Assembly: GCA_030621915.1 (NCBI GenBank) | Contig: JAUXGV010000002.1 | Coordinates: 1 to 46,188 of the forward strand | Direction of reading: 5' to 3' | DNA length: 46,188 nt | Source: Flavobacteriaceae bacterium | Lineage (GTDB): Bacteria; Bacteroidota; Bacteroidia; Flavobacteriales; Flavobacteriaceae | Part shown: positions 14,723-23,981 of the stretch, piece by piece | Layout of the letters: every line of letters starts with the position of its first letter | Numbering within the stretch: the stretch's first letter is position 1 | Notes under the pieces: model-generated | Databases searched by the model: none | What the model was told of the DNA's origin: nothing | Seen by the model: the letters and a program-made list of their open reading frames with translations, nothing else | Program-made: the position numbers and the translations under genes

Positions 14723-15052
14723 ATGAAGCGTAGTTATTTCAGAAAAATAACATCCTTTATTTTGATACTGAGCATTATATTGCCTTTAATTATTGGGTTT
14801 ACACATGTTTTAGATGATCATGAACATGATATTTGCAAGGCAAAGACTGAAACACATATTCATTCCAAAAAGAGCAATTGTTCAAGCCTCCATTATTTTA
14901 CGCATTTTCAATACAAGAGTGGCCTAAATTATCTTGAAATACATGGTGCTGAATATTTTCAAGGGCCTTCAATTCAATTAAATTTCCTATTTTATTTTAC
15001 ATATATCTCTTCTAATTTCGAAAGAGGACCTCCTTCATTTAATGTTTTATAA
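14723..15052 (+). CDS. Small His/Cys-rich exported or membrane-anchored protein, putative metal binder
   Basis: The protein has 109 residues. A basic N-terminus and hydrophobic segment (about 9-27) form a signal or anchor. A compact His/Cys cluster follows: H28, H33, H35, C38, H45, H47, C53, H57 and H61, with HEHDIC and HIHSKKSNC as its cores. Similar small His/Cys-rich proteins sit before TonB receptors in other flavobacteria. The receptor gene starts 41 bases downstream, so a shared role in Zn or Cu handling at the envelope is likely. The C-terminal half is unremarkable. The function is inferred from composition and context only. Confidence 0.75.
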   Translation: MKRSYFRKITSFILILSIILPLIIGFTHVLDDHEHDICKAKTETHIHSKKSNCSSLHYFTHFQYKSGLNYLEIHGAEYFQGPSIQLNFLFYFTYISSNFERGPPSFNVL

Positions 15053-15093: not shown

Positions 15094-17334
15094 ATGAAAA
15101 GTAAATTAATTATTCTTTTATTAGGGTATTCGTCATTCATTTTTGCCCAAAATAGTATTACAGGTATCATTACAGAACAAGATAATACTCGGCTTTTTGG
15201 CGTGCAAATCTATATTGAACAACTACATATTGGGACTACATCTGATGAAAATGGGAATTTTGAGTTCAACAATATTCCTAATGGAACTCACATATTAGAA
15301 GTTAGTTATATTGGGTTTAAAAAAGAAATTAAAACAGTCAGTTTATCTAATAAATCCATTGTGGTTAATCTTCAGTTAACCGAATCTGTTTTTCATATGG
15401 ATGAAATAATTGTGTCAACACCATTTCGAAAAACGCAAAGTAAAAATGTAATGAAAGTTGACTATAAAAGTATCAAATCCTTTGATAAAAATGGAGCAAC
15501 TACCTTAATCCAAGGAATAGTTTCCATACCAGGTGTTGAGCAAATATCAACCGGAACTGGGGTTGGAAAACCCGTTATTAGAGGATTAAGCGGTAATCGA
15601 GTTTTAGTTTACACACAAGGAGTTCGGCTAGAAAATCAACAATTTGGGAATGAGCATGGTTTGGGTTTAAATGAATCTGGTATTGAAAGTGTTGTAGTTA
15701 TCAAAGGACCAGCTTCACTTTTATACGGATCAGATGCCTTGGGTGGGGTATTGTATTTCACTCCTGAAAAGTTTGCTTTAAATAATGAAACAAAAATAAA
15801 TTTTAGACAGAAATTATTTTCGAATACTTTAGGGAGCAACACATCTTTAGGCTTTAAAACTTCTAAAGAAAAGTTTAAATTTTTAGCTAGAGGTGCTTAC
15901 AGTACACATATTGATTATAAAATTCCAAATGGTGATAGAGTCACCAATACTCGTTTTAATGAAAAAGATTTTAAAGCGGGTTTTGGATATAACACTAATA
16001 ATTATATTTCAGAATTTAGATATAATTATACAAAATCAGAAATTGGACTAACTGAAGGTATTGGAAATCAATCTAAGGATAGAATACCCGAATTACCATT
16101 CCAAGAAATTGGCAATCATATTTTAAGTTTACATAATCATTTATTTTTCGAAAATTCTAAGCTGGATTTTGATTTGGGGTATGTTTATAATAATCGCAAA
16201 GAATTTGAGGAGCATGAACATGATGAAGGCCCCATAGATGAGGATGAGGCAGCTCTACATATGAAATTAAAAACATTTACTTATGATGTAAAATACCAAT
16301 TTCCTAAAATCATAAATTTTGAAAGCTTAATTGGATTGCAAGGTTTAAATCAGAGTAATGCTAACTTTGGTGAAGAAATTTTGATTCCCAATGCCAAAAC
16401 AAATGATATTGGGGCACTTATTTCGGGATTATATTCATGGAATGAAATCAATAGTTTACAGGGAGGAATTCGATTTGACCATCGAAATATAAGGACAGAG
16501 GAACATAAAATTCAACATGAAGATGAGATTCATACATTTGAATCTCTAGATAAAAGTTATCAAAATTTTGCAGCATCCTTAGGTTTCAAAACATTATTTT
16601 TTAACCATGTAATTTCACGATTAAATTTAGCGTCAGGTTTTAGAGCTCCAAATTTAGCGGAGTTAACATCAAATGGTGTACATCATGGAACAAACCGATT
16701 TGAAATTGGAAACCCCAATTTAAAAAGTGAACAAAATTTTCAAATTGACTTATCACTAGAATATCAAAGTGATCACCTAGAGTTTTTTATAAATGGTTTT
16801 TATAATCAAATAAACGATTATATTTATCTTACTCCTACTGGAGAAATTGAAGATGGACATAATATTTTTACCTATGTGCAGAACGACGCAGAATTGTATG
16901 GAGGTGAATTTGGACTCCATTTTCACCCTCATCCTTTAGATTGGCTACATATAGAAAGTAATTTTGAAACTGTGACCGGAAAGCAAATGGATAATGATTA
17001 TTTGCCATTAATCCCAGCCAATAAATTAACAAATACTATTAGAACCGAATTTAATGTAAACGAGAAGTTTAGCGAATTATTTGTGGCTCTAACACTCCAA
17101 TCCTATTTCGAAAAAAATAATGTAAGTTCTTTTGAGCAACCATCCGAGGCTTATAATTTAATAAACTTAAGTATGGGAACAGATATCATTTTTATTAAAA
17201 CAGATTTACAGATAAATTTTGGCATCAATAATATATTAAACAAAACATATATTTCACATCTATCTGTATTAAAAGTTGATGATATTCCCAATATTGGAAG
17301 AAATATTTTATTGGGCATAAATTTAAATATTTAA
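15094..17334 (+). CDS. TonB-dependent outer-membrane receptor, putative metal type (ZnuD-like)
   Basis: The protein has 746 residues. A signal peptide (1-18, ending FAQ) precedes a carboxypeptidase-regulatory-like domain (about 22-107, ITGIITEQDNTRLFGVQIYI). A plug (about 118-225, with GVGKPVIRGLSGNRVLVY and GPASLLYGSDALGGVL) follows, then a 22-strand type barrel. Several predicted loops are rich in His and acidic residues: EEHEHDEGPIDEDEAALHM, EEHKIQHEDEIH, SNGVHHGTNRFEIGNPNL and HFHPHPLDWLHIE. Such loops and the NRFEIGNPNL barrel motif recall zinc receptors of the ZnuD kind. Copper is also possible. The preceding His/Cys-rich gene supports a metal substrate. Confidence 0.92.
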   Translation: MKSKLIILLLGYSSFIFAQNSITGIITEQDNTRLFGVQIYIEQLHIGTTSDENGNFEFNNIPNGTHILEVSYIGFKKEIKTVSLSNKSIVVNLQLTESVFHMDEIIVSTPFRKTQSKNVMKVDYKSIKSFDKNGATTLIQGIVSIPGVEQISTGTGVGKPVIRGLSGNRVLVYTQGVRLENQQFGNEHGLGLNESGIESVVVIKGPASLLYGSDALGGVLYFTPEKFALNNETKINFRQKLFSNTLGSNTSLGFKTSKEKFKFLARGAYSTHIDYKIPNGDRVTNTRFNEKDFKAGFGYNTNNYISEFRYNYTKSEIGLTEGIGNQSKDRIPELPFQEIGNHILSLHNHLFFENSKLDFDLGYVYNNRKEFEEHEHDEGPIDEDEAALHMKLKTFTYDVKYQFPKIINFESLIGLQGLNQSNANFGEEILIPNAKTNDIGALISGLYSWNEINSLQGGIRFDHRNIRTEEHKIQHEDEIHTFESLDKSYQNFAASLGFKTLFFNHVISRLNLASGFRAPNLAELTSNGVHHGTNRFEIGNPNLKSEQNFQIDLSLEYQSDHLEFFINGFYNQINDYIYLTPTGEIEDGHNIFTYVQNDAELYGGEFGLHFHPHPLDWLHIESNFETVTGKQMDNDYLPLIPANKLTNTIRTEFNVNEKFSELFVALTLQSYFEKNNVSSFEQPSEAYNLINLSMGTDIIFIKTDLQINFGINNILNKTYISHLSVLKVDDIPNIGRNILLGINLNI

Positions 17335-21508: not shown

Positions 21509-22999
21509 ATGGACAATAATTTTTCTGACTTTTTACAATCATTTGAAAATAAATTAAAATCTGTTTTCTATGATAGGGCGGATATCAATGAATTCAGTTT
21601 GAATCGAGGAGTCCCATCACTTGTTATGAGAGAAATAATGACTGATGCACCTCTTTCAGTTTCAATACCTGAAACATTTGGTGGTCGTGGAGCTAAGGTT
21701 AAGGAATGCTTAAGTATTCTTTCTGCAGCTTCCTATGAGTCGTTGCCTCTATCATTAACATTCGGAATCAATATTGCACTTTTTTTAGAACCTGTTGCTA
21801 AGTATGGAAATAATGAGGTAAAGGCCAATATTTTTAAGCGTTTCTTGGAAAAGCAAAATATGGGTGGATTGATGATCACAGAGCCTGATTATGGTAGTGA
21901 TGCCTTGAATATGCAAACTTTCAACACCAAAAAAGGAACCAATTATCATATAAAAGGAACCAAACATTGGCAGGGGTTAACAAGTTTGGCTGACTACTGG
22001 TTGATTACGTCACGTTCGAAAAATGATCAAGGCCAATTGGGAAGAGACATAGATTTTTTTATTTGTGATGTAACTCAAGAGAATCAAAAAATTATTGTTG
22101 AAGAATTATTTGATAATTTAGGGTTATATATGATTCCTTATGGTAGAAATAAACTGAATTTGGTTATTCCTGAAAAGTTCAAATTAGAACCAGAAAGTAC
22201 AGGTATTAAAATGATGCTTGATATTTTGCATAGAAGCAGAATGCAATTTCCGGGAATGGGAATGGGATTTTTAAAACGTATGCTTGACGAAGCCTTAAAT
22301 CAATGTAATAAAAGAATCGTTGGTGGTAAAAACCTTTTATCATTAGATCAGGTACAACTGCAAATAGCTCGAATTCAAAGTGCATATACAATTTGTTCAG
22401 GAATGTGTTTTGTTAGTAGCTCGCGAAGTGGTATTGATAAAAACCTTTCCTTAGAAAATGTACAGGCCAATAGTATGAAAACAGTAGTTACGGATCTGAT
22501 GCAGGAAGCGGCACAATCTGTAACCCAACTTTTCGGAGCCCAAGGATTTAGAATTAGTAATATTGCAGGTAGAGGAATTGTTGATAGTAGACCATTTCAA
22601 ATTTTTGAAGGCTCTAATGAAATGCTATATACTCAAATATCAGAGTCTATTATCAAATTGATGAAAAGAAAAAAAGAATTAAATCTATTCAAATTTTTAG
22701 AAGACTTTGAATTAACCTCTAAATCTGCAGAATATTTTAAAAAAGAAATCAATTTCAACTTAGATATTAATCTTTCTCAACGAAAATTGGTTGACTTAGG
22801 CAAAGCACTTGGAAGAATAGTATCTGCAGGCTTTGTTCTGGAAATGGGCGAAAATGGCTTTAGAAAAGATTTGATAGAGAATTGTATATCAACTTTACAA
22901 CAGGATATCTCTAATTTAATAAATTCCTTCAACTTCAGTAATAAGGTTGATAGTATTGAAGATTATCAAGAAGGAAGTTCCTGGATGCAATTCACATAA
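21509..22999 (+). CDS. Acyl-CoA dehydrogenase family protein
   Basis: Read from the ATG at 21509 the protein has 496 residues. The order of motifs is that of an FAD-dependent acyl-CoA dehydrogenase: VSIPETFGGRGAK, LMITEPDYGSDALNMQT, the GTKHWQGL strand, HRSRMQFPGMGMGFLKRM, and FQIFEGSNEM with E367 at the catalytic-base position. The C-terminus is longer than the usual 380-residue type. It is a single gene without beta-oxidation partners, so the substrate cannot be named, and it may act in degradation of branched or unusual acyl groups. An in-frame TTG at 21494 is less likely. Confidence 0.9.
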   Translation: MDNNFSDFLQSFENKLKSVFYDRADINEFSLNRGVPSLVMREIMTDAPLSVSIPETFGGRGAKVKECLSILSAASYESLPLSLTFGINIALFLEPVAKYGNNEVKANIFKRFLEKQNMGGLMITEPDYGSDALNMQTFNTKKGTNYHIKGTKHWQGLTSLADYWLITSRSKNDQGQLGRDIDFFICDVTQENQKIIVEELFDNLGLYMIPYGRNKLNLVIPEKFKLEPESTGIKMMLDILHRSRMQFPGMGMGFLKRMLDEALNQCNKRIVGGKNLLSLDQVQLQIARIQSAYTICSGMCFVSSSRSGIDKNLSLENVQANSMKTVVTDLMQEAAQSVTQLFGAQGFRISNIAGRGIVDSRPFQIFEGSNEMLYTQISESIIKLMKRKKELNLFKFLEDFELTSKSAEYFKKEINFNLDINLSQRKLVDLGKALGRIVSAGFVLEMGENGFRKDLIENCISTLQQDISNLINSFNFSNKVDSIEDYQEGSSWMQFT

Positions 23000-23073
23000 A
23001 TTGATCTATTTTTTATTACCTTAAAGATCTATCATGTTTATAGTTGATCATTATAATTTAAAATTTTGCTCTC

Positions 23074-23181
23074 ATGGATAGTAATAAATGCACCTGCAAT
23101 TGTAACGAATGTAAAAACGAAAAATGTCATGATTGTACCTGTGAAAACTGTACTTGTTCAAATTGTGATTGCCAAATTTAA
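23074..23181 (+). CDS. 35-residue metallothionein-like cysteine-pentad peptide
   Basis: The ATG at 23074 opens a frame of 35 residues ending in TAA at 23181. Eleven residues are cysteine: C6, C8, C10, C13, C18, C21, C23, C26, C28, C31 and C33, plus H19. From C18 to C33 the spacing is strictly 3,2,3,2,3,2, formed by three tandem pentads, CHDCT, CENCT and CSNCD, at 23125-23139, 23140-23154 and 23155-23169. There are no aromatic residues and few hydrophobic ones. This is the composition of a metallothionein, so it probably binds Zn, Cu or Cd in thiolate clusters. It is 74 bases after the acyl-CoA dehydrogenase stop. No Shine-Dalgarno sequence is seen, as is usual here. No known family is recognised. 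Confidence 0.7.
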   Translation: MDSNKCTCNCNECKNEKCHDCTCENCTCSNCDCQI

Positions 23182-23365
23182 GTAGCATTAAAAACTTTCA
23201 AGGATTAATTTTCTCCAGTAAGGCAGTGAATGCATTAAATATGGTTTAATATGTGCTATCACTATTAGATTTAATCTCGTATGTCCAAACCGCCAGAGGT
23301 AGATTAGAACAATTATATTGTAATATATAATGATATGTATCTTCTTATAATCCTATCTGATTACT

Positions 23366-23435: not shown

Positions 23436-23981
23436 ATGAAAATTAGAAAATCCAACCCTTGGCATAGTGTGAAAATTGGCAATAATTCTCCTGAATTTGT
23501 AAATGGCATTATCGAAATACCAACAGGAACTAGAGCAAAATATGAACTTGATAAAGAAAGTGGACTAATCATGTTAGATCGGGTTTTATATTCTTCAATC
23601 TACTATCCTGCCAATTATGGCTTTATTCCAAGAACTTATTGTGATGATAATGATCCGCTGGATATTTTAGTTTTATCGCAAGTTACCATGGTTCCTCTTT
23701 GTATTGTTTCATCCAAAGTTATAGGTGTTATGCGTATGTTAGATGGAGGAGAACATGATGATAAAATAATCGCAGTTGCTGAAAATGATATGAGCGTAAA
23801 TCATTACAATGATATTTCGGAATTACCCCCTCATTTTATCAAAGAATTAAGAAGTTTTTTTGAAGATTACAAAAAATTAGAACACAAAACAGTTGAAGTT
23901 ACTAAATTTCAAAATGCCGAAGTTGCCAAGGAAATTGTGAATCAAAGTATTATTGATTATCAAAATCTAATATCCAAATAA
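23436..23981 (+). CDS. ppa: Inorganic pyrophosphatase (family I)
   Basis: The soluble enzyme hydrolyses pyrophosphate to two phosphates with magnesium and pulls biosynthetic reactions forward. The 181 residues fit family I. Signature elements are [13 protein letters not shown] (28-40) and [19 protein letters not shown], with metal-binding aspartates D71, D73 and D76, and later [18 protein letters not shown]. Its stop codon (23979-23981) directly abuts the stop codon of the opposite-strand DUF2851 gene with no spacer. Confidence 0.97.

Follow-up and report, generated by a model that had tools for sequence, protein, structure and literature searches.

The window, by which we mean the whole stretch of 46,188 nucleotides analysed here, contains an intact gene for a 35-residue peptide with 11 cysteines. 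As judged from its sequence, the peptide belongs to a real, conserved and undescribed metallothionein-like family, for which metal binding is predicted. In most relatives the peptide gene typically comes first and is followed by a gene for a SigZ-like ECF sigma factor with a CC...CxxC tail. The copy in the window is an orphan: an adjacent sigma gene, the ECF-type promoter and the hairpin of the relatives are all absent. We consider it likely that the peptide is a metal buffer, autoregulated together with a metal-sensing sigma factor in most relatives and uncoupled from it here. The regulatory module of the relatives is more informative than the gene and its presumed function.

The peptide gene in the window

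The features discussed are the following:

23074..23181, + strand: metallothionein-like peptide gene (orphan copy), 35 residues, 11 Cys; identified by its frame and by relatives elsewhere
22824..23073, + strand: upstream stretch that lacks the relatives' ECF-type promoter; its best score, 11 of 17, is the value most often seen in shuffled sequence
23182..23266, + strand: downstream stretch without the hairpin of the relatives; folding z -0.44

Re-reading of 23074-23181 bore out the intact frame of 35 residues and 11 Cys, which runs from an ATG at 23074 to a TAA ending at 23181 and encodes MDSNKCTCNCNECKNEKCHDCTCENCTCSNCDCQI. The cysteines occupy positions 6, 8, 10, 13, 18, 21, 23, 26, 28, 31 and 33. 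The first-pass annotation had described a cysteine spacing of 3,2,3,2,3,2 across C18 to C33 and 15-base repeat units at 23125, 23140 and 23155, and we find both as claimed. The frame is more than a chance occurrence; when the window was dinucleotide-shuffled 60 times, no ATG frame of 20-60 residues contained more than 7 Cys, and none reached 11. The intergenic gap that holds the gene extends from the acyl-CoA dehydrogenase stop at 22999 to the ppa start at 23436 and measures 436 bases rather than the 437 given previously. Known RNA families were not found in this gap, nor were terminator-like sites between 22500 and 23800. A metal-uptake pair elsewhere in the window had also been mentioned. 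This pair probably corresponds to the TonB-dependent receptor at 15094-17331 and the adjoining 109-residue His/Cys-rich protein at 14723-15049, the latter without a match in Pfam and NCBIfam scans. Some 5.7 kb separate the pair from the peptide gene; we found no link between the two, and the pair is no evidence for the function of the peptide.

Distribution and conservation of the peptide

A single-sequence search of 60 relatives recovered the 11-Cys frame in the window genome and three others; a further match, L006, was dropped as spurious. A four-row profile found matches in 71 of the 397 genomes of the family (E<=0.1, the window counted), 70 of which were fetched (G261 was left out). Within the genus of the window the same profile matched 2 of 22 genomes, namely the window and G006; that G006 alone carries the peptide, out of 21 genomes of the genus besides that of the window, is a point against the preferred reading. 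When genomes drawn across the phylum were searched with a 41-row profile (E<=0.01), only 5 of 395 matched, all five from the window's own family. A scan of genome_contigs with short patterns, which distant copies may escape, confirmed 13 loci, including ones in Flavicella, Lutibacter, Polaribacter, Tenacibaculum, Winogradskyella and one Saprospiraceae draft genome. With low-complexity filtering, a search of plasmids for the peptide gave no match at E<=1.

The earlier annotation had left it to be checked whether orthologues keep the frame and its cysteines. They do: the spacing CxCxCxxCx4CxxCxCxxCxCxxCxC is kept in 63 of the 70 fetched family loci. The peptide profile itself leans on cysteine, and the fairer count is therefore that of the sigma-linked genomes, 50 of 51 of which keep all 11 Cys; this count is independent of the cysteine filter because the 51 genomes are also found via the sigma factor. 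At each cysteine column of 75 frames both TGT and TGC are seen. The set of 76 sequences used for comparison is limited to copies that match the 11-Cys pattern strictly and differ in their upstream DNA, and leaves outside L102, L106, L108, L114, L115, L117 and L118; L102 (G131) is a sigma-less copy in decay that has lost part of its cysteines.

The median dN/dS was 0.25 with cysteine codons included (497 usable pairs, from frames pre-picked by their cysteine pattern) versus 0.67 with cysteine codons removed (1,407 usable of 2,850 pairs; 0.53 for the 41 pairs that include the window copy). The cysteine lattice is therefore the conserved part of the peptide, and the remainder is fairly free to change. 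Weak selection outside the cysteine codons counts against the preferred reading; a kept lattice with free residues in between is nevertheless the pattern one would expect of a peptide that wraps metal.

Relation to known metallothioneins

Metallothioneins are very small, rich in Cys arranged as CxC and CxxC, and poor in aromatic residues. The window peptide has these properties, with no F, W or Y at all, and so do the 41 aligned members, 40 of which had been pre-picked by a cysteine-pattern filter. The classical bacterial metallothioneins SmtA and BmtA (PF02069, Metallothio_Pro) are likewise small and Cys-rich, carry both CxC and CxxC and are presumed metal buffers; their model, however, spans 51 positions, whereas most peptide members have 33-35 residues. 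PF02069 does not match the window peptide at E<=10 or any of the 41 members at E<=1. None of 14 related genomes contained it either, in a search whose control on 14 named genomes was positive in one, Synechococcus elongatus. No family in Pfam, NCBIfam or the PDB chains fits the peptide; the sole weak profile match was to an unrelated peptidase domain in 2 of the 41 members (best E 0.21). In the titles and abstract openings of the part of the literature that was covered, we found no description of the peptide or of its link to a sigma factor. The proposal of a new metallothionein type thus stands in so far as the gene is real, is metallothionein-like in size, cysteine content and motifs, and belongs to no described family; the function is plausible on these grounds.

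Metallothioneins under dedicated regulators have precedents. The Mycobacterium tuberculosis metallothionein MymT is reported to sit in the regulon of the metal-responsive RicR (PMC10141476), and Anabaena NmtA to be regulated by AzuR (PMC8790569). MymT resembles the present peptide in being a metallothionein under a metal-responsive regulator; however, RicR is a CsoR-type repressor of several operons, whereas the presumed regulator of the peptide is an ECF sigma factor encoded directly behind it.

The SigZ-like sigma factor

A gene for a Cys-tailed sigma factor lies downstream on the same strand in 50 of the 70 inspected family genomes, although in one of these 50 (G231) it carries in-frame stops. 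It is truncated in one further genome (G090) and absent beside the peptide at 19 loci, the window among them. All 13 loci from the genome_contigs scan have the sigma gene, at L044 with another frame in between. The reverse search gives a clearer picture still. Across the 397 genomes 51 sigma matches scored at least 181 bits, the next one 165 bits, and a comparison of coordinates places the peptide next to all 51. The profile was built on peptide-linked sigma factors; it would still have picked up a sigma factor of this subclade that stands alone.

The best matches of the partner are the SigZ models TIGR02959 and NF007215. Only one of four scanned partners passes the TIGR02959 cut-off of 168.65 (L037 with 176.5 bits; the other three reach 158.7-164.3 bits), and all four fall below the NF007215 cut-off of 212. 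A His and a Cys are invariant in the linker of the partners, and four cysteines, CC...CxxC, are conserved in the tail. A structure model of one partner reached a mean pLDDT of 80.1 and a pTM of 0.49; the geometry of the Cys site is not given by it. CorE and CorE2 of Myxococcus xanthus (ECF238, former ECF44) are likewise described (PMC8999054, PMC3107203) as ECF sigma factors with cysteines in a C-terminal extension, and as in the partner there is a candidate for metal binding in the linker. However, CorE has a Cys-rich domain and a CxC, whereas the partner has the CC...CxxC tail and the linker His and Cys, and unlike CorE and CorE2 it adjoins a metallothionein-like peptide gene. The CxC between sigma2 and sigma4 that characterizes CorE-type factors does not occur among the invariant columns of the partners; one of the two papers, a review, states that most ECF238 members also lack it. 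The four-Cys tail and the CxC-less linker, being unlike CorE, are a point against the preferred reading.

Given that the peptide stands beside every one of the 51 sigma genes of the subclade and that both proteins are Cys-rich, one could assume that the peptide acts mainly on its partner, either as a metal- or disulfide-bridged anti-sigma factor or as a protein that delivers metal to the sigma tail. We regard this as unlikely. The 19 of 70 fetched family loci with a peptide match and no adjacent sigma gene argue against it, and 14 sigma-less copies retain the 11-Cys pattern; the peptide is therefore useful without a sigma partner.

The ECF-type promoter and its targets

Upstream of the peptide gene, the sigma-linked loci (62, of which 57 were classed by script and five by reading) share an ECF-type promoter, TGCATCTTTTT-N11-CGTCTA. 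Its score is 14-17 of 17 in 61 of the 62 upstream regions, with L039 at 13; every one of the 62 has a spacing of 11, and the site mostly ends 24-38 bases 5' of the start codon. In the 14 sigma-less copies the score is 10-13, with 11 for the window and 12 for G006. In 1,520 mononucleotide shuffles most scores were 10-12, the commonest 11 and the highest 15. The G006 copy may retain a vestige of the promoter at the usual place.

In whole genomes the exact pattern occurs in 10 of 15 that have the pair versus 1 of 15 that do not, and a slightly wider pattern in 12 of 15 versus 2 of 15; the two pair-less genomes concerned, G168 and G011, both carry a sister SigZ. Nearly every exact site in the pair-bearing genomes belongs to the peptide. 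Three have an extra exact copy: at L136 (G174) it lies 17 bases 5' of a gene for a CDF cation exporter, at L134 (G352) it precedes a DUF3703 gene directly upstream of the peptide operon, and in G395 no frame follows closely. The CDF family transports divalent cations, and we count the exporter behind an exact promoter in favor of a link to metal. A wide regulon was considered and rejected: the number of sites with one mismatch was about that of the reversed pattern, and we therefore interpret exact sites only.

Sister SigZ loci

At a sister SigZ locus in G168, an arsenite methyltransferase gene (334 bits against a cut-off of 263) is found behind a similar promoter, and this too we count in favor of the metal link. 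Sister SigZ loci, whose sigma factor has another tail, also adjoin an ArsI/CadI-type gene, the match to which covers only 90 residues and scores 64 bits versus a cut-off of 116. These neighbors fit a metal or metalloid role. Alternatively, the targets of the peptide could be thiol-reactive species or As(III), or it could serve in redox or sulfur storage, instead of buffering Zn, Cd or Cu. The arsenite methyltransferase-like genes beside sister SigZ loci (scanned in G168; by eye in G281 and G164) would be in keeping with this; however, the sole extra target of the exact promoter outside the peptide region is the CDF exporter, and we regard this explanation as unlikely, slightly more so than that of a peptide acting mainly on its partner.

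Further observations concern loci around the sister SigZ group. At L051 (G011), L052 (G008), L126/L167 (G168) and L181 (G281), a sister SigZ-like sigma factor is followed by a peptide of 42-46 residues that ends with SCR...RR[FY]C; the one that was scanned had no Pfam match. A similar promoter (TGCGTCTTTTT or TGCATCTTTTT ... GTCTTGG) precedes this peptide in G011, G008 and G168, and the arsenite methyltransferase-like gene in G168 and G281. Another SigZ-like group, L168-L180, L183-L185 and L187, has a shorter CC...C tail, with CxxC in most, and unrelated neighborhoods. On the Arenibacter plasmid NZ_CP022516.1 (L189), a SigZ-like gene leads genes for a thioredoxin-family protein, a permease and an oxidoreductase; the permease matches the efflux models SaoE and SO_0444, both below cut-off. 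On the Hymenobacter plasmid NZ_CP110138.1 (L190), which belongs to another order of Bacteroidota, a promoter-like GCGTCTTTTTT...CGTCTATTC is found, in the stretch from about position 1437, directly 5' of a SigZ-like gene.

The hairpin behind the peptide gene

Folding of the 85 bases 3' of the stop codon gives z<-2 for 59 of 62 sigma-linked copies and for none of the 14 sigma-less ones. The first ten bases of the 59 stems occur in 52 different versions; the hairpin structure therefore persists while its sequence turns over. A T-rich stretch follows the hairpin in 47 of 59 cases, versus 54% at random places in the same stretches, and 20 of 57 hairpins satisfy a strict rule for terminators; both are points against the preferred reading. 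We read the hairpin as a partial terminator or a 3' stabilizer that favors the peptide transcript. The order of a short Cys-rich frame, a strong hairpin and a regulator gene would also suit a leader peptide, in which ribosomes stalling at Cys codons open the hairpin and let the sigma gene be transcribed according to cysteine supply, but this attenuation is unsupported and very improbable, as pairing between the peptide frame and the 5' arm of the hairpin is no better than for shuffled frames (mean z +0.38; 1 of 59 below -2), the cysteines are rigidly spaced rather than a run of Cys codons, and sigma-less copies persist without the hairpin.

Uncoupled copies

At the window copy the regulatory parts of the relatives are all missing, which weighs against the reading of the peptide as an autoregulated metal buffer. 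The window copy has lost this regulatory module or never had it. A search of the window genome with the sigma profile gave 15 matches at E<=1e-5, the best with 66 bits, and those listed reach no further than model position 165 of 179. A tailed SigZ did not turn up anywhere in this genome, with no match at E<=1e-42, in a draft of 2.93 Mb and 262 contigs that is 77% complete, so that a sigma gene might sit in the missing part. The G006 copy lies behind the same acyl-CoA dehydrogenase gene and is also without sigma gene and hairpin. Small genomes of up to 2.3 Mb account for 13 of the 19 sigma-less loci (two of which, L114 and L115, are doubtful peptides) versus 2 of the 51 sigma-linked ones. Together, these copies suggest that the peptide can escape control by the sigma factor.

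The uncoupled copies of the window and one related species have neither sigma gene nor clear ECF promoter nor hairpin, so that the buffer would be made from another promoter. TAnnTTT[GA], which we take to be the housekeeping -7 element of Bacteroidota, occurs at a promoter-like distance in 10 of 14 sigma-less versus 5 of 62 sigma-linked copies (shuffle mean 1.8); this box was picked after the sequences had been inspected, and the ten do not include the window copy. A promoter search with a combined -33/-7 score gave no signal.

A possible metal homeostat

The peptide would be a small thiolate-cluster buffer whose 11 rigidly spaced cysteines enclose a small number of Zn, Cd or Cu ions, or As(III). 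Its gene would, in most relatives, be the first of an autoregulated pair. The CC...CxxC tail of the SigZ-like factor and the His and Cys of its linker probably bind metal; with metal bound, the sigma factor would become active and transcribe from the TGCATCTTTTT-N11-CGTCTA promoter. At the hairpin behind the peptide gene most transcripts would then end or be protected, so that buffer is plentiful and sigma factor scarce, and we infer a feedback in which the buffer lowers free metal until the sigma factor is switched off. By analogy, the SigZ-like partner would combine sensor and activator in one protein, with the peptide as main output and brake.

A more far-reaching suggestion, which we put forward tentatively and hold to be somewhat less probable than its opposite, is that the peptide family and its SigZ subclade together make up a metal homeostat that is self-contained and new in its layout. 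Its promoter would be autoregulated, with the buffer encoded first and the ratio of buffer to sensor set by the hairpin; the sigma factor itself would be the metal sensor, the peptide would take metal from the sigma tail, and some lineages, including that of the window, would have been released from the circuit.

The tight pairing, the sharp promoter and the very few other targets open a poorly understood ECF group to direct tests of its function, and the pair is a candidate for a compact metal biosensor. The peptide is recognized by no curated profile, and PF02069 is absent from all 14 related genomes; it is therefore likely a metal buffer of Flavobacteriaceae that is invisible to current annotation. 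If the homeostat exists as outlined, part of the SigZ group would gain a function.
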